This document shows, piece by piece, positions 568-22,435 of a stretch of DNA of 32,768 bases. Source of the stretch: Actinomycetota bacterium (GTDB lineage: Bacteria; Actinomycetota; JAICYB01). Location of the stretch: NCBI GenBank assembly GCA_035536535.1, contig DATLNZ010000058.1, positions 1 through 32,768 of the forward strand. The letters run 5' to 3'. A model generated the notes under the pieces. It saw nothing but the letters and a program-made list of their open reading frames with translations. It ran no database searches and was not told where the DNA came from. Within the stretch, counting starts at the first letter, position 1. Each line of letters starts with the position of its first letter. The position numbers and the translations under genes are program-made.

Positions 568-1461
568 ATGGCCAGGACAGCGCGGCCCTCACCCGCCCGC
601 ACCGCAGGCGTCTTTCTGACCGGGTTGGCTCTGCTCATGACGGGCTGCCAGGCGGGAGCGACTGACACCGGCTCCACGACAAGTCCTTCCCCGGCTCCCC
701 GGATCACCAGCATTCCGGAGCCGACACCACGTCCCACCCCGTCACCGGAGTTCGAAACGGAGCAGGTGACGGTCCGCCGCGTGGTGGACGGTGACACGGT
801 GGAGGTGGAGATGGCAGACGGCCGGACCGAGAAGGTCCGCCTCATAGGAGTGGACACCCCCGAGAGCACCACGAGACACGAGCGGTACGGGTCGGAGGCG
901 TCGGCTTACACGTCCAAGGAGCTGTCGGATCGCGACGTGTGGCTGGAAACGGACGCGGGCGAGCGGGACCGCTACAGCCGCCTTCTGGCTTATGTCTGGC
1001 TGGTCCGTCCCTTGACGGGTTCGGACGGCGAGGTGCGCGAGAACATGTTCAACGCCCGGCTGTTGCTGGACGGGTTCGCACAGGTGATGACAGTGCCGCC
1101 GAACGTCAAGTACGCGGAGCTGTTCGTACTCCTGCAGTCGGAGGCGCGCGAAGCGCGAACCGGCCTGTGGGGGCTGGACCCCGAGGAGGCCCCGGCGCCG
1201 GCGCGCAGGACGGTGGGGGCCGCGACGACCCCTCGGCTCCGCGCCGCGACGACCCCTCGGTTGACGATCGCCCCCAGGCGGACGACGGCCCCACCTCGCC
1301 AGCAGGGGTCGGGATGTCACCCGTCGTACCCGGACTTCTGCATACCACCGCCCCCGCCCGACCTTGATTGCAAACACGTGTCAGGGAGCAACTTCACGGT
1401 CCAGGGGGAAGACCCGCACGGCTTCGATGGAGACGACGACGGCGTAGGTTGCGAAGGCTGA
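568..1461 (+). CDS. Secreted thermonuclease lipoprotein with C-terminal Excalibur motif
   Basis: Predicted 297-residue extracellular, membrane-anchored nuclease that cuts DNA and RNA with calcium. A signal peptide ends in the lipobox-like LMTGC (Cys27), followed by a Pro/Ser/Thr linker. The staphylococcal-nuclease domain covers about residues 65-205: VRRVVDGDTVEV, RLIGVDTPES (Arg, Asp and Glu of the active site) and DRYSRLLAYVWL (second Arg). A Pro/Arg/Thr linker with a 24-base internal repeat follows. The end, from about residue 250, has Cys pairs and DLDCKH...FDGDDDGVGCEG, the calcium-binding Excalibur-type motif. The start ATG has GAGGA 6 bases upstream. It appears to be the last normal chromosomal gene before the accessory region. 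Confidence 0.93.
   Translation: MARTARPSPARTAGVFLTGLALLMTGCQAGATDTGSTTSPSPAPRITSIPEPTPRPTPSPEFETEQVTVRRVVDGDTVEVEMADGRTEKVRLIGVDTPESTTRHERYGSEASAYTSKELSDRDVWLETDAGERDRYSRLLAYVWLVRPLTGSDGEVRENMFNARLLLDGFAQVMTVPPNVKYAELFVLLQSEAREARTGLWGLDPEEAPAPARRTVGAATTPRLRAATTPRLTIAPRRTTAPPRQQGSGCHPSYPDFCIPPPPPDLDCKHVSGSNFTVQGEDPHGFDGDDDGVGCEG
1219..1260 (+). repeat. 24-base tandem repeat inside the thermonuclease linker
   Basis: The 18 bases GCCGCGACGACCCCTCGG occur at 1219-1236 and 1243-1260, a 24-base (8-codon) period giving AATTPRLR/AATTPRLT. It lies in the Pro/Thr linker and keeps the frame, so it is a coding expansion of the spacer between nuclease and Excalibur parts. Confidence 0.85.
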
Positions 1462-3725: not shown

Positions 3726-3754
3726 TTGCCACCGTTCCGTGTGGGTAATAGTAT
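3726..3754 (+). promoter_or_regulatory. Sigma-70-type promoter for the Fic gene
   Basis: TTGCCA (3726-3731), a 17-base spacer, and TAGTAT (3749-3754). The spacing is ideal and both boxes are close to consensus. A tandem GAATCATA repeat (about 3774-3789) lies between the predicted start site and the ribosome site, a possible operator. Confidence 0.6.
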
Positions 3755-3804
3755 TATTCCGTCCAGAGGGAAGGAATCATAGAATCATAACCGGAGACGA
3801 ACAC

Positions 3805-4962
3805 GTGATCTACCAGATGCCCTCAGTGCGTGCAGAGGAGCAGGCAGCACTCGCACGGATCAATAAGGTCCACCGGCAACTTCGGTCGTATGTGTCGCAG
3901 CCGCGGCGGTGGCTAGGACTGGTCCGCCGCGTGCTGTCGGCTCGAGCCATTCAGGGGTCCAACAGCATCGAGGGGTACAACGTGTCGGTTGAGGATGCCG
4001 TGGCTGCCATCGAAGGGGATCAGCCTTCTGAGGCAGAGCGGGAGGACTGGGAGGCAGTCCTGGGTTACAGGCGCGCGATGACTTACGTGCTCCAGATGGA
4101 GTCGGACCCCCACTTCCGCCTGACGCCGGAACTGCTACGAAGCCTCCACTACATGATGACGGAGTACTCCCTCCCGGCAGGCCCCGGTCTGTGGAGGAAC
4201 CAGCACGTCTGGGTGCGGAACTCAGCAACTGGAGACGTGGTGTACGAGGCCCCAAACGCCAGCCAGGTACCCCGGCTGATTGACGATCTGATCGCGCAGC
4301 TGACGGACCCTACTGAGATCCCCGCGATTATCCGGGGTGCGATGGCCCACCTGAACCTGGTGATGATTCACCCCTTCCGTGACGGCAATGGCCGCATGGC
4401 CAGGTGCCTGCAGACGCTGGTGCTCGCTCGGGAGGGTCTGCTGGCGCAGGAGTTCTCGAGCATCGAGGAGTACCTCGGAAGGAACACAGAGGAGTACTAC
4501 AGGGTGCTCGGAGAGGTAGGACAGGGCCGTTGGAACCCTCAGAACGATGCTCGACTCTGGATCCGCTTCTGCCTCAAGGCTCACTTCGTCCAAGCCTCGA
4601 GCGTCCTGCGGAGAGTCCAGGAGTGGGAGGCCACGTGGCGCCGCGTCGAGGATCTGGTGGACAGTCACCGACTTCCCGAACGCGCCTTCGTGCCACTCTT
4701 CGACGCGGCCATGGGCTTGCGCGTCCGCAACTCCGGATACAGAGCCAGTCTCAAGATGATGGAAGGTGAAGAAATCTCCAATCAGGTGGCCTCCAACGAC
4801 CTGAGAGCCATGGTGACTTCTGGCCTTCTTGAGCGGCGCGGAAAGAAGCGGGGCACCTATTACGTCTCTGGGCCTCCGCTCGTTCATGTCAGAAACGAGG
4901 TTCGAGCCGGTCGAGCGGGGACGATAGACACCTCCGACCTGTTCAAGACCGAGGCAGCCTAG
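3805..4962 (+). CDS. Fic family protein (protein AMPylator) with built-in inhibitory helix
   Basis: A 385-residue protein from GTG 3805. Fic enzymes transfer AMP (or another nucleotide part) to target-protein hydroxyls. The active-site motif HPFRDGNGR is at residues 189-197, with the catalytic His first. An N-terminal SNSIEG (residues 52-57) fits the inhibitory S/TxxxE(G/N) motif of class II Fic proteins, whose Glu blocks ATP. The C-terminal third looks like a winged helix (ISNQVASNDLRAMVTSGLLERRG). The longer GTG at 3739 is rejected because it lies inside the promoter; GTG 3805 has GGAGA 7 bases upstream. All key residues are present, so the enzyme should be active when relieved. Confidence 0.93.
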   Translation: MIYQMPSVRAEEQAALARINKVHRQLRSYVSQPRRWLGLVRRVLSARAIQGSNSIEGYNVSVEDAVAAIEGDQPSEAEREDWEAVLGYRRAMTYVLQMESDPHFRLTPELLRSLHYMMTEYSLPAGPGLWRNQHVWVRNSATGDVVYEAPNASQVPRLIDDLIAQLTDPTEIPAIIRGAMAHLNLVMIHPFRDGNGRMARCLQTLVLAREGLLAQEFSSIEEYLGRNTEEYYRVLGEVGQGRWNPQNDARLWIRFCLKAHFVQASSVLRRVQEWEATWRRVEDLVDSHRLPERAFVPLFDAAMGLRVRNSGYRASLKMMEGEEISNQVASNDLRAMVTSGLLERRGKKRGTYYVSGPPLVHVRNEVRAGRAGTIDTSDLFKTEAA

Positions 4963-6620: not shown

Positions 6621-8909
6621 TCAGGATCCACTGTTCCGAGAAGTACTGACCTCCGGAAATCCGCACGATCGAAGCTCCGCCCCCACCGAGTAATTGACAG
6701 ACTCGCCGGCCAGGAACGGGAGGACGTCCGCCGAATCGAACCCGTGAGCCTGAAACGTACATTCGTCGGCGATCGGCCGTTTGGAGAATGTGTCGCCGGT
6801 CTGCTGAATCACGTACTTCTGGGTGCCGCTGACGACAAGACTGCCCTCGGCCCGGAATACTCCAGGGCCACGCGGGTATAGGCTCAACTCTGCCGCAGTC
6901 ACCTCGACGATGTTGTTCCAGTTGAACCCCCACGACTCGTATGCTTGCCCACTCATAATGGGCCGTGCTACTCCGCCGCTTATGAGGTAGACCATTGAAT
7001 CATCGCTGGTTTTGATCAGCTGGCCGTCGGGGCGCTGGCGTGAACTACACAGCGCGGCCGTGACCTGAAGCCCTTCAACATAGGCTGCTGATTCTATGTG
7101 CGGGTCTGACCTCACCCACGCATCCTTGAAGCCACAACTCGAATAGTCTGCAGGGCCGGGAATGTACCTGCGCACCCAGCTCGCGGTCGGCCATTCTCCG
7201 ACCTGATCCACGACGTAGATCTTGCCCGTCGATGGGCTCGAGATCAAAGAGCCCTCGCGATAGTGAATGACTTGACCCGCCGGAAGCGCATCATAGCCCG
7301 AGTTGTGAACCCTCTTGATTCGATCCCATCTCATCCCGGTGTTGGTGCCATCAATCCATCGGGAACTGTACGAATCAAGCACCTGCGGGCTAGCAATGGC
7401 GTTCTTCGTCCCGCCGTGCACCGCGAAGGCCGCACCCGCAGGGTCCGCGACCAGAAGCTGTCCATTGGTACTCTGCTTAGCGCAAGGGCCGAGGGTCCCA
7501 GATCCGATGACTGGATGCGGCCCGTCAGGAATATTGATCGCATAGACAGTAACTGTGTGGGGCCGGTAGTCGCTCCACAAGATGGGAACCTGCCAGACGT
7601 ACCCGTGGTCGCCAGGAACGCCTTCCGGTCCATTGACGTCGTTAATGTCGGGCCTCGCGATGCGAGCAGGACCAATATCATAGCCAACTCCGTCCACGTA
7701 GATGTGGACGGAAATTGAGTGAATCGGTTGGTCTGGATCGTATGTCCATCCCGCAATTGTGTTGCAATTCATTGAGTCTACAGAGCCGCGCGGGCTGTGG
7801 TTGGTATATAAGGCACGGACTCCGGCGACGTCACCATTCAATAGTGAACGCCGGAGTTGCCCAGCTGAGAGGCAGCCTTGCGTCATAACTGAGGCACTGC
7901 ACGACGTGGGTGGGTGGTGTAGCCCCAGCGCGTGCCCAGCTTCATGCAGCATGACCGATTCAAGATCAATCCTACCCTGCTGTCCGGTGGTGCTCCACGA
8001 GTATCCATCGTTGATCCATATATCGAACCCGCTAAAATGGCCCCCGCTACCGTGGGACTGGGCACAAGCGTAGTAATTGGTACTTACGCCGCACGTGGAC
8101 GAGGCAGCGAACCATACGGTGTTGAGCCCGTCGTTGAACGAGGTTTGCCCCGCAGCCGTTCCCCGGTAGTCGAAGTCCATGTATGACGCGGGATCGTTTT
8201 CCCAAGTCTGGAAAGCCGCCTGGATAGCTGACCTCACAGAATCGCCGGACAGCCCGTCGTTGTTGCCGTGGTCGATGTAGTAAGTAGCGGGCAGCGATGT
8301 GACCTGCCACTTCAGCCCCGTGAAGCAATAGTCGGTCGAGGGGCAGCCGGGCGAAACCGTGTCATAGCTCTCAGCGAGCTCCACTCCGTCCCCGGATCCT
8401 CCCGTGCCTTCGCCAGAGACCGAGGAGGGGTCGTCCTGCTTGCCCTCATCCAGTCCCCGGACGTAGAAGTCTTCGCGACCGATCCGTTCGAGAAAAAGGC
8501 GTGAGCGCTGGCCGCTCCTAAAAATGGGTGAGTGCTCCGTATGAGTCATCCGAACCTCCCCATTTTCATCTGGGGCAGTACCTTGATCTGTGTGAATGTT
8601 GATCGTCCCAGAAATCCCGCCGCGAATACTTTCCTCGACTACGAATCGAGTGACAGAGGTGACCTTGCCCTCCTGTCCAGACCATTCGGAACTGGTAGAG
8701 CCAGCCACCCCGGTGACAACGAAAGGCGCAGCAGCGATGTCAATGATCGGGCCGCGCGGTGGGTCAGGGTAGCGGGAGGGGGGAAGGTTCTGGACGCTGT
8801 GATCCGCCGGTTGCTGGAGCAGCGTCGCTGGCTGCGCCGAGACCGGCGGATGAGGGACTAACGTGGCAGTGATAAGTAGCAGCCCGACCGACAGCAGCGC
8901 CGTTTTCAC
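6621..8909 (-). CDS. Secreted matrixin-type zinc metalloprotease with C-terminal repeats
   Basis: 762 residues. GTG start with GGGGG about 6 bases upstream. A signal peptide (residues 1-25) is followed by a beta-rich propeptide-like part to about residue 190. The catalytic domain holds HEAGHALGLHH at 322-332 (zinc His322, His326, His332; catalytic Glu323), then the Met-turn VMTQG (Met342) and ALYT at the domain end. After residue 370 come a Gly/Trp-rich part (GWTYDPDQPIHSISVHIYVD) and several repeats of the type DGQLI...GGVARPI...ESWGFNW, likely beta-propeller or cell-wall/substrate-binding units. It is probably an active exported protease. It begins a two-gene unit with the BsuPI-like gene. 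Confidence 0.9.
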   Translation of the reverse strand: MKTALLSVGLLLITATLVPHPPVSAQPATLLQQPADHSVQNLPPSRYPDPPRGPIIDIAAAPFVVTGVAGSTSSEWSGQEGKVTSVTRFVVEESIRGGISGTINIHTDQGTAPDENGEVRMTHTEHSPIFRSGQRSRLFLERIGREDFYVRGLDEGKQDDPSSVSGEGTGGSGDGVELAESYDTVSPGCPSTDYCFTGLKWQVTSLPATYYIDHGNNDGLSGDSVRSAIQAAFQTWENDPASYMDFDYRGTAAGQTSFNDGLNTVWFAASSTCGVSTNYYACAQSHGSGGHFSGFDIWINDGYSWSTTGQQGRIDLESVMLHEAGHALGLHHPPTSCSASVMTQGCLSAGQLRRSLLNGDVAGVRALYTNHSPRGSVDSMNCNTIAGWTYDPDQPIHSISVHIYVDGVGYDIGPARIARPDINDVNGPEGVPGDHGYVWQVPILWSDYRPHTVTVYAINIPDGPHPVIGSGTLGPCAKQSTNGQLLVADPAGAAFAVHGGTKNAIASPQVLDSYSSRWIDGTNTGMRWDRIKRVHNSGYDALPAGQVIHYREGSLISSPSTGKIYVVDQVGEWPTASWVRRYIPGPADYSSCGFKDAWVRSDPHIESAAYVEGLQVTAALCSSRQRPDGQLIKTSDDSMVYLISGGVARPIMSGQAYESWGFNWNNIVEVTAAELSLYPRGPGVFRAEGSLVVSGTQKYVIQQTGDTFSKRPIADECTFQAHGFDSADVLPFLAGESVNYSVGAELRSCGFPEVSTSRNSGS

Positions 8910-10068: not shown

Positions 10069-12192
10069 CTAGGGCCTTGACAGGTGGCTGATGTCAAGGC
10101 CCACTATGGGGCCTGCGTCTCCGGAGCCGAAATACTTGACGGGGCTGAAGTCGATCACGGGCGTCACCCGAAGAAGGTTCACGGTCTCGAAGGCGAGTTC
10201 AACCAGAGGCGGCCACGTCCGGTCGCCTTCCCACGCAACAAGGGCGTCGGCCGTCGCAGGCACAGCGCCGATTCCGCCCGTCTCCGAACGGTAGACATAG
10301 GTGAGCCGGTGGACATCCGCGTACATGTTGGGCCACAAGGCTCGAGGTCGGTCGCTGATGAAGCCGGCGATCGTCTCCCCGATCGAGTCGGTCGTCATCG
10401 ACTCTTCGGTAACTACGGCGCCGAAGACCTGGAACTGGAACTCCTGCGGGTCCACCGGGTTCCCATACGGCAGGGTGTAGTTCTCGCCGCCTGCCGAGCG
10501 ATCTAGCCTCTTGACCGACTCGAGGTTCTCAAGGGCCTGATGCAGGGTCGCGCGATCCCGGATGCTCGCCTTGACCTCGAATACAGCCGCTACGGACTCA
10601 GCGAGGAAGTGGTTCACGCCGCCAATGACTATGACGGGGTGATATGAGCGTCGATACACGACCACGTCCACTTGTCTACTGATCGACCCGGAGTGATCGA
10701 TCACAAAGCCGGTCGATATGGCGAAGTCATCCGGGATCAGGCGTCGCAGGAACGCAGTCAGGACTTGCTCACGCGCGCGACCACTTTCTCCGGGGTGTGC
10801 GATTGCTTTGGTGAGGGCTAGTTCGTTCAGAACCTCACGGTTCATCGCCTCGACGACCTGCGGGACGATTCCAGGCACCGAGTTGTCTCCACCTAGGCTC
10901 TTGGGTCGTGCGCGGCGAACCCGCGCCTCGCCTGAGCTACGGTAGCGCTCGCGGCCGACGTCGGCGCCGCAAGCGCAGGAACGGGTTAGGGGCCGCAGCC
11001 CCCCGGCTGCTAATCCACGCTGAGCCGCTGGGCAGGCGGTTGCCTCTAGCGCTCCAGGCGGCCGGATGTCTTCAGCATCGATCCAGACCGCCCCCTCTGG
11101 CACGGAACCCACTTCGAAAATGGCAACCAGGATCCAAGGCTCAACAGGTGTCGACTCCGCGCACAAGCCGCGATACGCATCCTCGAACTTGGCGATTGAA
11201 GCTTCCATCTGCGCCGGCAACGTTGGAGGTGCTGCCCTACAAACGCGCCACGTCACTTGGTCATGTATCCACCAATCGGACCCCCCCTGCGCGAACAATC
11301 GCTTGACCAGGGTCAATCGGGCCGGAGGCGCCTCCGGCCAGGCCTCCTCATCGAGCGCCAGCACGGCCTGACGATATTCCGGCCAAAGGTCACGGAGCCT
11401 GCGAAGCTCATCCTCGATCGCGTGCGTAGCGAGCAACGTAGTCGGCGTTCGGATCGTAGCCAGCAGCTGAAGAAAGGCATCGATACCCCAAAGCAGCGCG
11501 GATGGGCACAACGACAGCGCTGGTCCTGTACGGCGCACGCTCTGACCCTCTATCTGCCGGGCGAGGCCGATGATCCCCCCGCTTGTCCCATGGATGACGC
11601 TGGACGCGATCCGATAGAACTCGTATTCCTCTGACAGCCCATGCTTCGCCGCCAGGTTGCGTAGGTTGTCGCCCGCCCAACGCGACCGGAAGCCCGAACC
11701 CCACCTCGCCAGCGCGTCCTCCGCCTGAGCGGCGACGGTACGCTCCAGCTCCTCGAGACGGTCACGCTCGATGGCAGCCGTTGTCGGCGGTAGCGCGTCG
11801 AGTTCTCGGCAGAGACGCGACAAAGCGTGGCTAGTCATTGCCTGATGTTGTTCGTACCGCGAAGCGCTTTCGACAGAAGAGACCACCTCTCGCGCATTGA
11901 TGGCGTGCTCGATCAAGGCACGGGTGGAACGTAGAGCCGGCCTCCCTCTGCCCTGGCGACACTCCACGAAGAGGTCGACTAGATCATTTACGGCCTGCTG
12001 GACGATTCGCCCGACGGCCTGAGGACCCCCGTCGAATCCGTATTGGAGCGACATGAGCGACGGGAGCTGCTGACAAGTCGACCGCAGCAGGTCGTCGTAA
12101 CGCGGGACACGTGCACGTATCTCGGCGGAAAAGTAGTCCGCTGCATCGAGTAGCGTCAGGTCACGATCACTGCGTCCGCTGTCTGATTCCAT
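10069..12192 (-). CDS. DUF5677 - DUF6602 protein, predicted PD-(D/E)xK nuclease-like
   Basis: 707 residues from ATG 12192 (GGGAG 5 bases upstream; GTG 12204 less likely). Residues 1-245 look like DUF5677, an all-helical domain (RALIEHAINAREV, YRIASSVIHGTSGG). From about residue 445 the chain matches DUF6602: a helix REQVLTAFLRRLIP, TGFVID, then SRQVDVVVY (Asp509) and AAVFEVKAS (Glu539, Lys541), the D...ExK layout of the restriction-endonuclease fold. The linker at about 385-435 is Arg/Gly-rich and looks out of frame, so two once-separate genes may be fused, or a pair of indels may be present. It has no signal peptide. A defence role is possible but unproven. Confidence 0.72.
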   Translation of the reverse strand: MESDSGRSDRDLTLLDAADYFSAEIRARVPRYDDLLRSTCQQLPSLMSLQYGFDGGPQAVGRIVQQAVNDLVDLFVECRQGRGRPALRSTRALIEHAINAREVVSSVESASRYEQHQAMTSHALSRLCRELDALPPTTAAIERDRLEELERTVAAQAEDALARWGSGFRSRWAGDNLRNLAAKHGLSEEYEFYRIASSVIHGTSGGIIGLARQIEGQSVRRTGPALSLCPSALLWGIDAFLQLLATIRTPTTLLATHAIEDELRRLRDLWPEYRQAVLALDEEAWPEAPPARLTLVKRLFAQGGSDWWIHDQVTWRVCRAAPPTLPAQMEASIAKFEDAYRGLCAESTPVEPWILVAIFEVGSVPEGAVWIDAEDIRPPGALEATACPAAQRGLAAGGLRPLTRSCACGADVGRERYRSSGEARVRRARPKSLGGDNSVPGIVPQVVEAMNREVLNELALTKAIAHPGESGRAREQVLTAFLRRLIPDDFAISTGFVIDHSGSISRQVDVVVYRRSYHPVIVIGGVNHFLAESVAAVFEVKASIRDRATLHQALENLESVKRLDRSAGGENYTLPYGNPVDPQEFQFQVFGAVVTEESMTTDSIGETIAGFISDRPRALWPNMYADVHRLTYVYRSETGGIGAVPATADALVAWEGDRTWPPLVELAFETVNLLRVTPVIDFSPVKYFGSGDAGPIVGLDISHLSRP
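10072..10102 (-). terminator. Hairpin at the 3' end of the DUF5677/DUF6602 gene
   Basis: GGGCCTTGACA (10072-10082) and TGTCAAGGCCC (10092-10102) pair over 11 bases with a 9-base loop. It lies within the last ten codons and the stop codon follows at once. There is no T-run, so it may act in termination or RNA stability. Confidence 0.45.
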
Positions 12193-12795
12193 CCGGACTC
12201 CCACAAGGTCTGGCTAGCACGTGGGAGCTGAGCTGCCGCGGCGACATGCTCACGGTCGGCCTGCACAGCGTCACCCGGCCTGCCTAAAGAAGAGCTGGCT
12301 TGAGCAGCCGGATCTCCGAATCCACCGACAAGCCCGCAGGGCTGGTGGCCAACGCAATCCGCACCTCTTGGGCCTTACCCGGAGAGTCGGTCCGAGCTGG
12401 CCCGGCACCCTGCCTCATACCTTAGTTTCCCCGCCCGATGTGACACGCCCCCGCAGCCAGTCGGCGGCTACCGCCCGTAGAACTTCTCTGATTGGAGGGA
12501 CCCGCGTAACCACCGGCCCGTGAACCTAACCCGAGGCCTACTACTAAGCACGCGCACCGAGGATCGTCCGGAGCGCGCCGCGCACACCGGCTGCGGTGGT
12601 CGTATGGATCGCTCTCTTGCGGGCAGCCATCTCGGTGTCCGACGTGTTGCTGGCCCCAGGCGTCGAAGTGACCGTCTCTGGCTCCCCCAGGCTGGGAGGA
12701 TCAAGTTCTTCCGTGCCTGGACCAAGGCCGGCCCGCCTTCAGATGGCGTTTGGGCGCTGGAGGAACCTCGGCCCTGGTGGCGAACCCCTTCACCC
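12193..12795. other. Intergenic region, no supported gene
   Basis: The region lies between two divergent genes. Open frames here (for example the plus-strand extension of the propeller gene from 12520) are Arg/Gly-rich and lack family features. It presumably holds both promoters; no convincing boxes were seen. Confidence 0.5.
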
Positions 12796-14415: not shown

Positions 14416-14949
14416 TTAGGGGAGGGTCGTTCCGTCGACCACCCTCGCCCCCGGCACCGCGCGTTCGAGTTGAACCTGGGTCCGAACCAGCTCCTGTTCC
14501 CAGCAACGAACGCGAACGGATGGGCGGTCGCCTTGGGTTATGACGACAATCACCAAGTCGCCGCGAACCTCGGTGGTTACACTGGCCAGCCGTTCCTGTC
14601 CGCAGTCCCCCTTGCCCTGCGTGAGCCATACCTCAACTGTGCGTCCGTCGGTCGACAGATACGCCTCCAAGTACGACGTCTTCTGCACCCGAACCAGCCC
14701 GCGCTCTGGCTTCACCAGCCGCGGGAGTCCTGGATGACCCTCTTGCCTTGTCTGTCTGGCCTCCGTGAATACGGGCTCTTCCGACCGCAAAAACCGCTGA
14801 CTACCCAGCCAAGCACCAGAGGCCAGAGCCGCTATGGCAGCGATCGCCACAATCCCACGCGTCTTCCGCAGCACCTGGCGGTGACGACGGCGGCTCGCAC
14901 CGTGGACCGCCTCCAGCGATCCAGTGGATCCCTCATGCGCCCGGTTCAA
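14416..14949 (-). CDS. Anchored small protein paired with the streptogrisin-like protease
   Basis: 177 residues, TTG start overlapping the protease stop (TTGA), so translationally coupled. One membrane helix (about 30-50: RGIVAIAAIAALASGAWLG), then an outside domain of about 110 residues: RTVEVWLTQGKGDC, VVITQGDRPSVRVRC and RAVPGARVVDGTT. This matches, motif by motif, the protein at 31717-32187 (VLFLGGFPGC, LTLFSGRSVTWSSESC, SQPVADYEFKDGS), which sits after a second protease of the same family. Two conserved Cys probably form a disulfide. No named family. An inhibitor, folding helper or anchor for the protease is inferred from the conserved pairing. Confidence 0.6.
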   Translation of the reverse strand: MNRAHEGSTGSLEAVHGASRRRHRQVLRKTRGIVAIAAIAALASGAWLGSQRFLRSEEPVFTEARQTRQEGHPGLPRLVKPERGLVRVQKTSYLEAYLSTDGRTVEVWLTQGKGDCGQERLASVTTEVRGDLVIVVITQGDRPSVRVRCWEQELVRTQVQLERAVPGARVVDGTTLP

Positions 14950-16262
14950 ATCAGGGTGACGTAATCCAGTGTTAGCTCCATCAGTTCTTGCACCGTCTGG
15001 ATATGAGTAAAGCAGGAGTAGCCGATCTTTTCATACTTGCCAGCCATGATTCCTTCTGCCCAAATCTCGTCCTCTACGGCGTTTGTGACGTCATACACGG
15101 GACCGCCGCTATCACCTTCTATTGAGACGGAGTCATTGCACCACGCATTCTCGAGGTAGCCGCCGCCTGTGAGCTTGATGTCGCCGCCGACGACTTTGAT
15201 CTGGCCACAGTTTGGTCCGGGATTCTTCCACCCTGACCAGCACGAGTCCGTGTTCCGGTCCAGATCGTCATAGGTGAACTGTCCGACGACTATTCTCAGC
15301 GTCTTTGGGCCCGTAACTACTTTCGGCTCGCCCTGTCCCAGGGGCCCGCTCGAGCCGGCTAGGGCAAATCTGCCCACGTCCCCCTTCACGACTCGATCCG
15401 CTGTCTCCTGAAACACCCAGCGATTCCGCCCCATCCACCCAACCTCGGTGGTCCCAATCGAGATCATCGTCTCGGGTCCAGAGCGGCCGCAATGACCGGC
15501 GGTGACACCCCAGTAACCCTTGTTAAACGAGTAGCCCGAAGTGCAGTTGCCGATCAGCGTGTCGTTCGCCGGGATGTTGTCCGCATCCAGATTCCTCCGA
15601 ACAGACGCTTGAAGGCCGCCGTAATACGGTGGGTATTTAGTCCTGCTGTAAGTGATTGGCAACTGGCCGGTTGGGTCCTGCGCCATTTGCATCCCTCCAG
15701 CCAGCCCAGGTTCCTGCCTATACGTGACCTGAGCCTGGTCCACTCCGGACGACCCCACGGCAGAAACCATCTCCGGCCTAAGTGTGTCAACACTCACCAC
15801 GACTCGATTGGTCTGAGAGTCTGGGGCGATGATGAAGTAAGCATCTGGGAATGAACTGTTGATGACGGACGTCACCGCCGCACGAGTAGCTCGGAGTTGG
15901 GCCCGTGAGTAAGTCACGCGAAAAGGCGCTGCGCGGGGGTCGCTAGACACTTCAGACCTAAACCTTGCCTCATCCGCGAGGTTCAGATCGACGATCCCGA
16001 CCCGATAGACTCCTGGGACTGTCGCGCGGTCAATCCAGTACCCCCCGAACCGAGACTCCCCAAAGGTCGCTTTCACGCGCCGCACTAGCTCAGCCGATGG
16101 CATGAACAGATGCATCTGGTCCTGGGGTTCTTGATAGGAGAGGTCCTCCGACGTGTCGATGGTCTCCTGAGCCGTAGCGCTCGTGCTTGCCCCACCCACG
16201 CAGACAGCTGATACGAGAAGTAGCCAAACGACTAGCGCAGCAAATCGTCGCTTCGAGATCAT
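14946..16262 (-). CDS. Secreted streptogrisin/alpha-lytic-type serine protease
   Basis: 438 residues from ATG 16262, which has GGGGGG just upstream; the longer frame to 16406 is rejected because the signal peptide begins here (RRFAALVVWLLLVSAVCVGG). A propeptide of about 200 residues follows, then an S1-family (chymotrypsin-fold) domain. The catalytic residues are all present: His257 in VTAGHCG, Asp295 in KGDVGRFAL and Ser385 in EGDSGGPVY. Cys in NCTSGYSF and AGHC form the usual disulfide. It should be an active extracellular endopeptidase, matured by autoprocessing. It starts a two-gene unit with the anchored partner. Confidence 0.92.
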   Translation of the reverse strand: MISKRRFAALVVWLLLVSAVCVGGASTSATAQETIDTSEDLSYQEPQDQMHLFMPSAELVRRVKATFGESRFGGYWIDRATVPGVYRVGIVDLNLADEARFRSEVSSDPRAAPFRVTYSRAQLRATRAAVTSVINSSFPDAYFIIAPDSQTNRVVVSVDTLRPEMVSAVGSSGVDQAQVTYRQEPGLAGGMQMAQDPTGQLPITYSRTKYPPYYGGLQASVRRNLDADNIPANDTLIGNCTSGYSFNKGYWGVTAGHCGRSGPETMISIGTTEVGWMGRNRWVFQETADRVVKGDVGRFALAGSSGPLGQGEPKVVTGPKTLRIVVGQFTYDDLDRNTDSCWSGWKNPGPNCGQIKVVGGDIKLTGGGYLENAWCNDSVSIEGDSGGPVYDVTNAVEDEIWAEGIMAGKYEKIGYSCFTHIQTVQELMELTLDYVTLI

Positions 16263-16651
16263 GTGCCCCCCGCGTCTTGACGCCCCAGTGCTTGAGGTCA
16301 TGGTAGTTGGCGCCGTCAACCTGAAAGAGGGAGGGGAGGAAGACGGCACCGAACCGTCGTCCGTCGACGTCGCGCGTGATGCAGAGAGGACGACCTCGTC
16401 TTGCAAGGGGACGACGGCCAGCTACGCCCCTGCTCATCGCCAGGGAGGGCTGTGGGAGCACCGGGAGCGCCGGGTATAGATCCGCCCACGCCCATACGCG
16501 TGACGGTCACCGGTCCGTCCTCACCGAGCGGGGGAAGTCCGGGCAACTCCTTCGGCAACCTCACGGCGCTGTGGGTGGGACTTCGGTCGACACGGGAGTA
16601 ACGGAGCGTCGTGACCCTCGAGCCTCAGGCTCTAGCCCAACCCGAGCGACG
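16263..16651. other. No supported gene
   Basis: GC-rich spacer between the protease and GNAT genes. A plus-strand frame with GAPGAPGIDPP (16401-16601) has a collagen-like look but no start context or family. The protease promoter should lie here. Confidence 0.5.
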
Positions 16652-17419: not shown

Positions 17420-17664
17420 CCCCAGGTCGCCCTCTACACCCTGATGCTGAAGCAGGTCCTGCAGAGCGAAAAACTCGCCCCCGCCCGGACGAGCTCGCGC
17501 CTCGGGGGCGTGTGACTGTTCGAGCACCCGGAACCTGAGTGGTTCGACATCTCGCGCGTGCGGGCACCGCTGGAGACGTTCCTGTCCCACCGGGAGCCGT
17601 AAGCAGCTGGTCGGCGACCCGGTCGTACAGCTGCGTGACGTGGCTGGCCAGCCACGTCTTCCAT
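17390..17664 (-). pseudogene. Decayed short gene between repeat copies b and c
   Basis: Starting at the ATG inside repeat copy c (17664), coding-like segments appear in successive frames on the minus strand: WLASHVTQLYDRVADQLL, then RDVEPLRFRVLEQSHAPEAR and GGEFFALQDLLQHQGVEGD, ending in GDPMEGHRKS at the next repeat copy (b). This needs at least two frameshifts. The body is bracketed by repeats in the same orientation, like a small cassette. No family is recognised. Confidence 0.28.
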
Positions 17665-17683
17665 GGGGTCGGGATTTTCAGGG
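17656..17683 (-). repeat. GACCCCATGGAAGAC repeat, copy c
   Basis: Exact 15-base copy at 17656-17670 followed by GGGATTTTCAGGG and a degraded second copy (GTCTTCGGTTTTCG). Confidence 0.8.
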
Positions 17684-17955
17684 GTCTTCGGTTTTCGAGC
17701 GCTTCCTTCTCCGAGTGACTATCGGCTCTAAGCCTCGTAAGCCCTTGAACAGGCCCCGTGGAAAGGAGGCGCGTCCCCTTCTGTTGCCCAGGGCCGAACC
17801 CTGGCCCAATTGGTCAAAGCATCCGAACGGGCGTAGTGTCGCGCCGTGACTCCTTCTGGGGGTCCCGGGGCCAGACGCTGGGGAGCAGGAAAGGGGGGCC
17901 GAACCGGGAATCTAGTGTCGTGCGCCCTGCCCACCGATGGTAACGGAGGTGCGGG

Positions 17956-18447
17956 TTGATTCGAAGAGCGGTCGTAGTCGTGGGGCTGTTTGTAGGCATC
18001 TTGATGGCAACGGGGGGAACTGCTTTCGCTGACCACGGGGGTCCCCTCTGCCACATCACAGAACCACCGCTGTGCGTACCACCTCTCCCCAGCTACCAGG
18101 GGGGAATCGGGGGGAATTACTTCAGGTACGAAACCGGACCTATCAACCCGGTCACCGTTCCTGGAGGGAACTTGAACCCGATCGTCTGCCCCGTCTCACC
18201 CGGGTCATGCTACGGGGTGAAGACTACCGGTGACTCGACCGTGGGCCTTCAGGACGATGGTGTGGCCATCACGGGTCAAGAGCCCTACGTCTACATCAAT
18301 GCCGACCTGAACGACCCCACTTCGTTGCCGAACTACTTTGAGGTCGGGCTAGGGGCAGTCCAGTACCACGGCGGCAATCCTCCGACGACTCGCTTCTCTC
18401 CCACCGACGTCAGGCCCTGCACGGGGCAGCCGGCGGGAAGCTGCTGA
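17956..18447 (+). CDS. Small secreted protein paired with the subtilase-fold gene
   Basis: 163 residues from TTG 17956, with GGAGG 7 bases upstream. A clear signal peptide (RRAVVVVGLFVGILMATGGTAFA) leads to a mature domain of about 135 residues with six Cys, rich in Gly, Pro and Tyr (YFRYETGPINPVTVPGGN, EPYVYINADLNDP, YFEVGLGAVQYHGG). The composition suggests a beta-sandwich outside the cell. The stop is followed after one base by the ATG of the subtilase-fold gene, so the two are one unit. No family was recognised. It is comparable in position, not in sequence, to the small partners of the other proteases here. Confidence 0.65.
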   Translation: MIRRAVVVVGLFVGILMATGGTAFADHGGPLCHITEPPLCVPPLPSYQGGIGGNYFRYETGPINPVTVPGGNLNPIVCPVSPGSCYGVKTTGDSTVGLQDDGVAITGQEPYVYINADLNDPTSLPNYFEVGLGAVQYHGGNPPTTRFSPTDVRPCTGQPAGSC

Positions 18448-18448
18448 G

Positions 18449-19486
18449 ATGTCCAAGCGGAGGCAGGCGCGGATCGCGGCTCTCGCTGCGCTGATCGTGA
18501 TGGGCGCGACAGTCGCGCCGTCCGCGTCCGCCTACGCACCCAACGATCCCAGGTGGCAGTACCAGAACAGCCTCAGGGTGGCGGGAGTTCCCGAGGCCTG
18601 GAACCGCTCGACCGGGTCCGGGATCGTTCTGGCGATGATCGCGCTGGCGGGGGTAGACCGTCAGCACGAGGACCTACGCAACCAGCTCGTGCCCGGATAT
18701 GACTTCCTGAATCCGGGGGCGGAGCCCCCCCCCGGCGGACACGACACGGCCGCCGCCGGAGTGGCCGTCGCCGAGCGCAACAACGGAGTCGGCATCGCTG
18801 GTGTGGCCCCAGGAGCAAGACTCATGCCGATCAGGATTGGGCCCGGCTGGCACGACTCCCTCCGGTTGGCAGTGGATCGCGGAGCCAAGGTCATCTTCTA
18901 TGAGGTGGAGGACATCCTCTGGCCCGACGACTTCGTCGGCCTTACTTCGCACCCCATCCCATACGAAAAGGCGATGGAAGAGGCACTTACCTACGCCTGG
19001 TCGCGGGGTGCGGTCGTCATCGGGGCTGCCGGAAACGAAGGGCGCCCCTACTGTTCCAACCCCTCTGCTTATGATCGGGTTCTTTGTGTCGGTGCCACCG
19101 ACGATGAGTTCCCAGACCAGCGGGCCCTCCGATCCAACTGGGGGTTTGGGCTGGACCTGGCCGCACATTCGCGGCACCAGGCCACCGACTGGAATTCCGG
19201 CGAACCCGACAACCACAGTGCCTATGGCCCGTTCAACGGGACCTCCGGCGCAGCAGCGTTCGCTGCCGGCGTTGCAGCCCTTTTGATGGGTGCTGGAGCT
19301 TCCAACGAAGAGGTGGTCCGGGTGCTTCAGTGCACAGCCGACGATCTGGGCCCCGAGGGTCCCGACCTCATCTACGGACACGGCCGTATCCACGCGGGTC
19401 GCGCGATGGCAGCCCTCGGCTCGGGCATTACGTGCCCCTCGCCACCAGCGACTGTTCTCGATCTCGTGAGGGGGAACCGGCCCTAG
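18449..19486 (+). CDS. Secreted subtilase-fold protein lacking catalytic Asp and His
   Basis: 345 residues. The signal peptide (to about residue 28) is followed by an S8-like domain without a long propeptide. Conserved landmarks are clear: GIVLAMIALAGVD for the first strand, GHDTAAAGVAVAERNNGVGI and GVAPGARLMPIR, AAGNEG (oxyanion Asn196) and NGTSGAAAFAAGVAALL (Ser266). The active-site DTG is replaced by ALAG (65-68), and the catalytic His of GxGTHVAG is Ala101. With Asp and His gone, normal proteolysis is very unlikely; Ser and Asn remain. The frame is intact and composition normal, which argues for a pseudoenzyme under selection, not decay. It is coupled to the upstream small secreted protein. 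Confidence 0.85.
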   Translation: MSKRRQARIAALAALIVMGATVAPSASAYAPNDPRWQYQNSLRVAGVPEAWNRSTGSGIVLAMIALAGVDRQHEDLRNQLVPGYDFLNPGAEPPPGGHDTAAAGVAVAERNNGVGIAGVAPGARLMPIRIGPGWHDSLRLAVDRGAKVIFYEVEDILWPDDFVGLTSHPIPYEKAMEEALTYAWSRGAVVIGAAGNEGRPYCSNPSAYDRVLCVGATDDEFPDQRALRSNWGFGLDLAAHSRHQATDWNSGEPDNHSAYGPFNGTSGAAAFAAGVAALLMGAGASNEEVVRVLQCTADDLGPEGPDLIYGHGRIHAGRAMAALGSGITCPSPPATVLDLVRGNRP

Positions 19487-19987
19487 TGGTGTGAGAAGAG
19501 GAGTGGTCGACGGCACTTGCCCCTCCTCCAGCCGCCCTCAAGTGCGTCGCCCAACGGGAGCGCTCCCAGATAAGTGCTCTCTTGGGTCCGCTCCGAGCTC
19601 AGTTCGCGAGCTGTGCAGCTTCCTGGAAGGTGAGGGCGGTTAATTCAAGATCGTCGGGGTGCCGACTGGCTACGCAGGTTCGGATGGCACCTGCGACGGG
19701 AATACCGATGGGCGGCAACCTGGACATGATTCGAACGGCGGTGGGATGGGCCTGCCCCAACTTCGCCGGGCGGCAGTTCTCCCCCTGCCGCTTCACTCCC
19801 GCGCCGGTGCCTTCGACATTGGTTCCACGGTCGCAGGGGCGTCACGATGTGCGAGAGATTCGGACGGCAGCGCGGGGTGCCAGCTACAGCGACAGAGGCC
19901 CCCGGCTCCCGCCTACTGCGGCTCCCGCTTGAGCTGAGTAGGGGTGGACGGGGTTGGGCATCATCCGGAGCCGCTCCTGCGCCCCCG
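19487..19987 (-). other. No firm gene; coding-like fragment at 19599-19796
   Basis: Within this region a minus-strand frame ends SRLPPIGIPVAGAIRTCVAS and HPDDLELTALTFQEAAQLAN before a stop at 19599. The last 45 residues look protein-like, while the part before is not, suggesting the end of a truncated gene. A hairpin-like GCAGGT/ACCTGC pair lies at about 19675-19695. The rest shows nothing supportable. Confidence 0.2.
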
Positions 19988-21008: not shown

Positions 21009-21722
21009 TCACCCAGGCCGCAGCTGTTCGTCAAGCACCGCAGCTGCCCGGATCACCTGCTCCGCATCGGCACGAGCTCCAGCCGCAGTGACGGCCTTCC
21101 GCAGCCCACGCCGACCGACAAACCGCACGTGCCCCACCCGCGTCCTCCGCAGCAGATGCGCCCGGTGGAAACACAGGACCGGCGTGACTGGCACCGCCCC
21201 AAGCCCTGCGCGGAACAGAACCTCCTCCACCGCGCGCGACTGGCCGAGCACCTGGTCCACGATGCCGGTGCGGCGACGGCCGTTGACGAAAACCTCTCTC
21301 CGGCGCACGCGAACCTTGCCGCTGTAGGACTTGGTCTCCACCACGAACACCCCGCACGGACCGATGACCAGGTGGTCGATGTTGGACCGGCGGCCGGACA
21401 TCTTGCGGTCGTGCAGGACGGCGTAGCCGAGGCCAAGGCCTTCCAGAGCGCGAGCGGTGCGCCTTTCACCGGAGGCGCCGATACTCCAGGACTCGGTGGA
21501 GCGGACCTGGACTGTCGCGTCGCTCAGGAGCGTGAGGAACGCGAGGCCCGCGGCCCACTTGCCGACGCCGGGGAGGAAGGCATCTACGAGCGTCCACGCG
21601 AGCAGCGGGGCGAACACGAGGAGTACGAGCGTGAACGGCAGCCGCCTTCTACGCCGCTCCTTCAGGTTCGTCCGGCGGCGGTCGTACTCGCGTTGCGCTG
21701 ATGCGCCTGGACGGCCAGCCAT
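21009..21722 (-). CDS. Membrane-anchored NERD-domain (nuclease-related) protein
   Basis: 237 residues from ATG 21722, two bases after the stop of the upstream gene. A basic N-terminus (RRRTNLKERRRRR) is followed by two membrane helices (about 29-48 and 55-68). The NERD domain then runs to about residue 190: GASGERRTARAL, YAVLHDRKMSGRRSNIDHLV (Asp116) and GVFVVETKSYSG (Glu129, Lys131), the D...ExK arrangement of restriction-type nucleases. A helical tail follows. NERD proteins are thought to process nucleic acid; the in-cell target is unknown. The longer frame to 21848 overlaps the upstream gene and is rejected. Confidence 0.85.
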   Translation of the reverse strand: MAGRPGASAQREYDRRRTNLKERRRRRLPFTLVLLVFAPLLAWTLVDAFLPGVGKWAAGLAFLTLLSDATVQVRSTESWSIGASGERRTARALEGLGLGYAVLHDRKMSGRRSNIDHLVIGPCGVFVVETKSYSGKVRVRRREVFVNGRRRTGIVDQVLGQSRAVEEVLFRAGLGAVPVTPVLCFHRAHLLRRTRVGHVRFVGRRGLRKAVTAAGARADAEQVIRAAAVLDEQLRPG

Positions 21723-21724
21723 GA

Positions 21725-22435
21725 CTAGAACCAAGCGACGCGAACGGGGACCTGCTCGCTCGACGAGCTTCGAGGGCTGAAGTAGTTCGCCAGCCACAGT
21801 TCGGTGCGCGTATCGAGCTGTCCAGCCACTACCGCCCCACTGTGGCATTCGTAGGTCTGAGTCAATCCGCCTCTAGGAAGCCGAGTGCCACCGGGGCGCA
21901 CCGTGCACCGGTCCCCGTTCAGGAGAGTGATGGACCAAACGGACCCAGGGTCGCTAAACGCGTCCGCATACCCGTCATGCCTGTCGGACCCAGGCGGCTC
22001 AGAGGGGGCTTCTCTAACACTCAGAAGCACGCCGCCATCCCGGTTTGGCCACTCAGGACAGAGTGCAAGGTAGCTGCCACCGCCGAAGTACCGAAAACAG
22101 GGGTCGCCAATGGGGGTGCGGTCCCCGGAGCATCGGTAGGCGTCACTCCGCCTGGTTGTCACGGATTCAGACCGGCAGACTCCGGTGTCGCGCTCGGCGG
22201 GCTGAACCGATAGCTTGCCATCAGCGCCTCTTGGGTCGAAGAATCGCAACTGCGTGCGGTCAATTGTCACAAGCGTCGGTCGAGTGAGTCGCGGAGTCAC
22301 GATCCGCTCCCAACCCACCTCCACCACTTTTACGGTCAAGGCTCCAACGAGCGCCGCAACCATCAGCCAGTACAACCTTGCCTTGGGTCTCTCGCCTGCT
22401 GGTCCGCCGCCGCCAACTGGCCTTGGCTCGGTCAT
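21725..22435 (-). CDS. Single-pass membrane protein with Cys-rich outer domain
   Basis: 236 residues from ATG 22435, with GGAGG close upstream; the frame is open further but the extension is Arg-rich noise. One membrane helix (about residues 21-37: YWLMVAALVGALTVKVV) is followed by an outside domain with six Cys: GVCRSESVTTRRSDAYRCSG, DPCFRYF, ALCPEW, DRCTVRPGG and YECHSG. Similar 'Cys-DAWRC...DPCF...CP' proteins occur widely in actinobacteria without a known function. It ends two bases before the NERD gene start, so the pair is probably co-translated. No catalytic motif was seen. Confidence 0.62.
   Translation of the reverse strand: MTEPRPVGGGGPAGERPKARLYWLMVAALVGALTVKVVEVGWERIVTPRLTRPTLVTIDRTQLRFFDPRGADGKLSVQPAERDTGVCRSESVTTRRSDAYRCSGDRTPIGDPCFRYFGGGSYLALCPEWPNRDGGVLLSVREAPSEPPGSDRHDGYADAFSDPGSVWSITLLNGDRCTVRPGGTRLPRGGLTQTYECHSGAVVAGQLDTRTELWLANYFSPRSSSSEQVPVRVAWF

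Follow-up and report, generated by a model that had tools for sequence, protein, structure and literature searches.

The window analysed here is a stretch of 32,768 nucleotides from an Actinomycetota genome. Its forward strand carries a gene for a protein of the subtilase (S8) fold, P0001, directly preceded by a short orphan open reading frame, P0002, and the features of both are collected in Table 1. The P0001 frame runs uninterrupted over its 345 codons, as the first-pass annotation had stated. The product matches the Pfam family Peptidase_S8 (PF00082) with an E-value of 2.4e-25 and a protease family of PHROGs with a value of 1.1e-28, and its best two sequence matches in solved structures are the Ak.1 protease (1dbi; 6.3e-34) and thermitase (1thm; 1.6e-30). 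Profile and subtilase fold both place the protein in the S8 fold family. The mycosin model TIGR03921 scores 147 bits, under its curated cut-off of 278.75, so that P0001 falls outside the mycosins. The GC contents at codon positions 1, 2 and 3 (0.69, 0.54 and 0.76) are of the coding type; base composition is nonetheless weak evidence of coding at this locus, because it is much the same in the antisense frame 18674-19516. Promoter and terminator scans of positions 17600-19800 gave no signal exceeding that of shuffled sequences. P0001 is a genuine, in-frame S8 (subtilase) homologue.

Table 1. Features of P0001, of the upstream frame P0002 and of the second degenerate subtilase P0004, with their positions.
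Feature	Position	Strand	Evidence
P0002, orphan ORF of 163 aa with apparent signal peptide and TTG start; possible co-translated partner	17956..18447	+	sequence, searches
P0001, S8-fold protein of 345 aa, catalytic Asp absent	18449..19486	+	ORF, Pfam, AlphaFold, fold match
Probable signal peptide, residues 1-28, SASA/YAPNDP	18449..18532	+	sequence; fold alignment
A65-L66-A67-G68 replacing D-T-G; catalytic acid gone, one residue longer	18641..18652	+	alignments
H98-D-T-A-A-A-G104; catalytic His present, next Gly changed to Asp99	18740..18760	+	alignments; PMC11593635
Residues 127-141, shortened S2-S4 loop of 15 residues	18827..18871	+	comparison with 44 relatives
F150-Y-E-V-E154 replacing N-L-S-L-G (substrate strand and Ser125-type residue)	18896..18910	+	alignments
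A193-A-G-N196, oxyanion Asn retained	19025..19036	+	alignments
A239-H-S241 replacing A-P-G	19163..19171	+	alignment
G264-T-S266, nucleophile Ser retained	19238..19246	+	alignments
P0004 (locus L013), degenerate subtilase, open to contig edge	contig C124, 1-1119	-	motif search

The N-terminus of P0001 has an apparent signal peptide, in agreement with the first-pass annotation; its end, read by eye from the sequence, lies at SASA/YAPNDP, and the protein is probably secreted. An AlphaFold model built on a 27-row alignment reached a pLDDT of 82.8 and a pTM of 0.85; that alignment consists of other subtilases, and the model informs on the fold, not on the state of the active site. Among solved structures thermitase (1thm) fits the model best, with a Z-score of 39.1 and a root mean square deviation of 2.1 over 268 residues. 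Residues 29 to 322 of the model align on residues 1 to 279 of 1thm, and residue 29 coincides with residue 1 of mature thermitase. P0001 is therefore predicted to have no propeptide. The triad-intact relatives L006, L003 and L047 likewise appear to have no propeptide, and its absence is thus not in itself a sign of inactivity.

The upstream frame ends one base before the P0001 start and is itself preceded by a GGAGG sequence. The first-pass annotation had described its product as a conserved-looking secreted partner. This did not hold: P0002 has no relative at another locus of its genome, none among 72,556 plasmid records, and none at E<=1e-4 in the 396 genomes sampled from the phylum. It has no Pfam match and no PHROGs family, and a comparison with PDB sequences returned only matches with E-values of 1.2 and 1.5. 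Among 60 relatives there was one other match (E 0.008), within a 778-aa frame that contains a stop, which we judge to be due to chance. Predicted alone, P0002 reached a pLDDT of 36.9. Its adjacency to P0001 suggests that it may be a partner of the subtilase-like protein.

Several other genes were noted in the window. A TIR-domain gene (PF13676; 20232-20908, minus strand) is split by a frameshift, its N-terminal half lying in one frame and its C-terminal half in another, which points either to a sequencing error or to a gene that is broken. A protein of 486 aa encoded at 14946-16406 (minus strand) has an N-terminal hydrophobic stretch and the motifs TAGHCG and GDSGG, which we take to resemble those of S1 proteases of the alpha-lytic type; it has no Pfam match at an E-value of 1. 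The gene at 6621-8909 (minus strand) encodes a protein of 762 aa that carries a matrixin (Peptidase_M10) domain, and protease-type genes therefore recur within 13 kb. The window further encodes a NERD-domain protein (21009-21848, minus strand), a Fic protein (3739-4962, plus strand), a staphylococcal-nuclease-like protein (568-1461, plus strand) and a DUF6602/DUF5677 protein (10069-12204, minus strand).

The active site of P0001 was compared with two sets of sequences, one of 44 relatives and one of 102 rows. Members were recruited through their resemblance to P0001 or to a profile made from its relatives, and strongly degenerate subtilases such as L013 are missing from both sets. Before the 44 relatives were selected, rows with a coverage below 200 columns were removed. 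The 102-row set contains the window gene twice, and some of its rows overlap one gene or are partly unaligned. According to PMC11593635, the catalytic pentad of subtilisin consists of Asp32 as the acid, His64 as the base, Ser221 as the nucleophile, Asn155 in the oxyanion hole and Ser125 as a further contact, the base being the His of the His64-Gly65 dipeptide. In P0001 the acid (BPN' numbering, position 32) is absent, and its motif reads ALAG in place of DTG, as had been noted earlier, with one residue more. The base (BPN' 64) is retained as His98, within GGHDTAAAG, and is invariant in alignments A1 and A2. The first-pass annotation had taken Ala101 to mark the loss of this His; that was a misassignment, as the base is the first His of HGTxxAG. 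Ala101 occupies the second, non-catalytic His position of the motif, which varies in relatives (HGTF in L006, HGTY in L017, HGTA in L049 and HGTL in L022). The nucleophile (BPN' 221) and the oxyanion Asn (BPN' 155) are present as Ser266 and Asn196, and here alignment upholds the earlier assignment from the GTS and AAGN motifs. The Ser125-type residue is replaced by Glu152.

Three members of the pentad (His, Ser and Asn) are thus present in P0001 and two (Asp and the Ser125-type residue) are gone. Such losses are foreign to the other S8 rows. All four catalytic columns are aligned in 93 of these 100 rows, and every one of the 93 reads D-H-N-S; in each of the remaining seven at least one catalytic column is unaligned, and no deviating residue occurs. 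The Ser125 column holds Ser in 99 of the 100 rows and is unaligned in one. The retention of His, Ser and Asn in P0001 is not informative by itself: by our own arithmetic, with 13 of the 22 strongly conserved cleft columns left, all three would be retained by chance in about 19% of cases.

The changes extend over the substrate cleft, a point that the first-pass annotation had overlooked. They comprise the exchange of Gly99 for Asp, the replacement of N-L-S-L-G by F150-Y-E-V-E, the substitutions P240H, G241S and P270A, and an altered S2-S4 loop. Compared with the 44 relatives, further conserved residues are changed at Asn150, Leu151, Leu153, Gly154 and Val272. Residues 127-141 are, by subtilisin anatomy, presumably the loop that forms the S2-S4 wall; the loop counts at least 22 residues in the 44 relatives (median 23) and 15 in P0001, eight of its residues being altered. 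In the terms of PMC11593635, the acid/base zone is gone with the exception of His98, and the pieces of the nucleophile/oxyanion zone, Thr265-Ser266 and Ala193-Asn196, are whole.

The losses are concentrated in the cleft. Of the 29 cleft columns with a conservation of at least 70%, P0001 has changed 14; a fraction as large is found in none of 43 relatives (maximum 0.25, median 0.07), one of the 44 having been dropped for too few columns. Outside the cleft 13 of the 67 columns conserved to this degree are changed, and 12 of the 43 relatives show an equal or larger fraction. The difference between cleft and elsewhere gave Fisher p-values of 0.005, 0.018 and 0.049 at conservation thresholds of 70%, 80% and 90%, respectively; these are uncorrected, and the cleft blocks were picked from known S8 motifs after the alignment had been inspected. 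Overall, P0001 retains 69 of 96 conserved columns (0.719), the lowest value among 45 rows, the next being 0.726. It has four cysteines in common with L006, a triad-intact paralogue. We read these data as a dismantled cleft on a scaffold that is constrained in the ordinary way, which fits a pseudo-subtilase rather than ordinary decay.

Two simpler accounts of these data can be weighed at this point. That P0001 is an ordinary active subtilase, odd only by its sequence, would agree with the strong S8 match and the thermitase-like predicted fold; we consider it very unlikely, as all other S8 rows have Asp wherever this column is aligned, and the substrate strands are changed as well. An assembly or sequencing error is scarcely credible. 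The assembly is a draft of 205 contigs with 2.62% contamination, and the nearby TIR gene has a frameshift, but the alterations in P0001 consist of many separate codon replacements and of whole-codon insertions and deletions at several sites, with no frameshift. A frameshift origin of the changed motifs was also considered and was rejected: neither frame 2 nor frame 3 matches the S8 profile, and the motifs D[TSN]G, N[LMI]S[LFW] and HGT are absent from both.

P0001 stands alone among its relatives. No orthologue was found in the three genomes of the class (its own and two others) or in 396 sampled genomes of the phylum, where the best non-self match is a triad-intact protein with 188.6 bits and 41% identity. 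The nearest homologues are about 40% identical and retain the triad. A scan of genome contigs with P0001 returned one distant protein and a scan of viral contigs no match; a scan of plasmids returned 148 records, all below 60% identity, with 34% in the eight listed. The terminal branch of P0001 is 1.45 long against a median of 0.59, and the protein is nested in a group of 18 rows supported at 99/93, of which the other rows show no catalytic loss. P0001 is a singleton in the genomes examined. A further divergent sequence, L017 (genome G002, contig C104), is triad-intact, has 320 aa with the motifs HGTYTAS and GTSASAPF, equals P0001 in branch length and pairs with L006.

These results bear on the possibility that the gene is in decay, that is, a lineage-specific S8 paralogue freed from selection, its frame still open and the changes in the cleft its first visible losses. 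The missing orthologues (in the two other class genomes and in the phylum sample), the lowest overall retention with the long branch, and the frameshifted TIR gene 1 kb downstream are all in line with decay. It is nevertheless an unlikely, though serious, alternative. The loss rate outside the cleft, 0.19, lies within the range of the 43 relatives, every insertion or deletion is in frame across the 345 codons, the cysteines and the G/A/D scaffold positions are retained, and a decaying gene should not lose its cleft selectively.

P0001 is not the only degenerate subtilase of its genome (G000), which has 13 S8 loci in 2.6 Mb. Two of these are adjacent on contig C38, and two adjacent loci also occur in a relative (G001, contig C171). 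A pattern search found the D, H, N and S motifs in 11 of the 12 other loci, the Asn pattern of L010 being less clear. P0004, like P0001, is S8-derived, has an apparent signal peptide and has lost the catalytic Asp (ISSG); it also lacks the His (GLGT), the oxyanion Asn (PAGD) and a GTS motif. Relatives of P0004 were found in G001 (one, 57% identical) and in G039 (three matches), so that the family occurs in 3 of the 396 genomes, its own included. All five members (L013 and L125-L128), which come from its own genome, one genome of the same family and, as three copies, one genome of another family, have no Asp, no His, an Asp for the oxyanion Asn, and no GTS. The losses are shared within a family, unlike those of the singleton P0001. 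The P0004 group is a small, conserved family of putative pseudo-subtilases, and P0004 is a better conserved case than P0001.

The reading that we favour, with a probability of about 0.55, is that P0001 is a secreted pseudo-subtilase with a thermitase-like S8 scaffold that has no propeptide and a cleft that has been reused for binding. The first-pass annotation had likewise proposed a selected pseudoprotease; this remains the best reading, but on other grounds, as the His is retained and the partner is not conserved. Selection on P0001 is suggested by a scaffold that, away from the cleft, is under ordinary constraint, and not by a conserved loss, and judged from its residues the protein probably lacks peptidase activity. 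The scaffold would fold normally, but without the acid/base half of its active site and without the substrate-holding strands. Asp99, Glu152, Glu154 and Asp155, which motif position places near the surviving His98, would line the remodelled cleft around it. P0001 would then act as an extracellular binder that keeps a ligand or a protein partner uncut in this cleft. The first candidate ligand would be the upstream protein P0002, putatively made from one message with P0001, and we infer that the two may bind each other.

Altered chemistry is another proposal. His98 and Ser266 could form a dyad that, with Asn196 in the oxyanion hole and an acid supplied by Glu152 or Asp99 or by a bound anion, acts on esters or on one special peptide. 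Besides the retention of His, Ser and Asn, the precedents reported for engineered subtilisins speak for it: azide occupies the place of Asp32 in a D32A subtilisin structure, and nitrite activates D32G variants (PMC7935941). Pseudoenzymes with migrated residues are also described (PMC10211241). We regard such chemistry as improbable, as peptide binding, which the engineered enzymes kept, would be abolished by the extra residue at the acid site, the exchange of Asn-Leu-Ser for Phe-Tyr-Glu and the missing part of the S2-S4 loop. A related variant is a secreted Ser-His hydrolase that receives its acid from Glu152 or Asp99, a small anion or P0002, and stays off until a partner or ligand arrives. 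Such a hydrolase, which would be nature's parallel to the engineered acid-less subtilisins, is very unlikely. In principle an enzyme could work without the acid, but we give this a low probability because the substrate strands are replaced in P0001 and intact in the engineered subtilisins.

The pseudo-subtilase reading can be set against known systems. Thermitase and the Bacillus Ak.1 protease (S8A) are like P0001 in predicted fold, sequence and mature start; P0001 differs from them by lacking the acid, the Ser125-type residue, the sequence of the substrate strand and the S2-S4 loop. In the engineered, anion-dependent D32A and D32G subtilisins, as in P0001, the acid is removed and the His and Ser are retained (PMC7935941); their cleft is intact, whereas that of P0001 is remodelled, and activity is known for the engineered enzymes only. 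A literature search by titles and the starts of abstracts found no description of a natural acid-less subtilase. CspC and CspA of Clostridioides difficile are, like P0001, bacterial proteins of the subtilase fold that have lost catalytic residues, and the Csp proteins work by binding; CspC, which by kind comes closest to P0001 among bacterial pseudo-subtilases, acts in a heterodimer with CspA (PMC12880746). P0001 does not belong to the CspA/CspC type, and the Csp prodomain and jelly roll are absent from its 345 residues, in which the domain follows the signal peptide directly. MamO is described as a metal-binding, repurposed serine protease (PMC4794232).

Few bacterial pseudo-subtilases have a known role, and the literature search gave CspA and CspC. 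CspC retains Asp105 and has Thr170 in place of the His and Gly485 in place of the Ser (PMC6636752). The pattern of P0001 is the reverse, the acid and the substrate strand being gone and the base, the nucleophile and the oxyanion residue being retained. If binding were shown, P0001 would offer an example, open to testing, of how the scaffold of a secreted protease is put to use as a binder.
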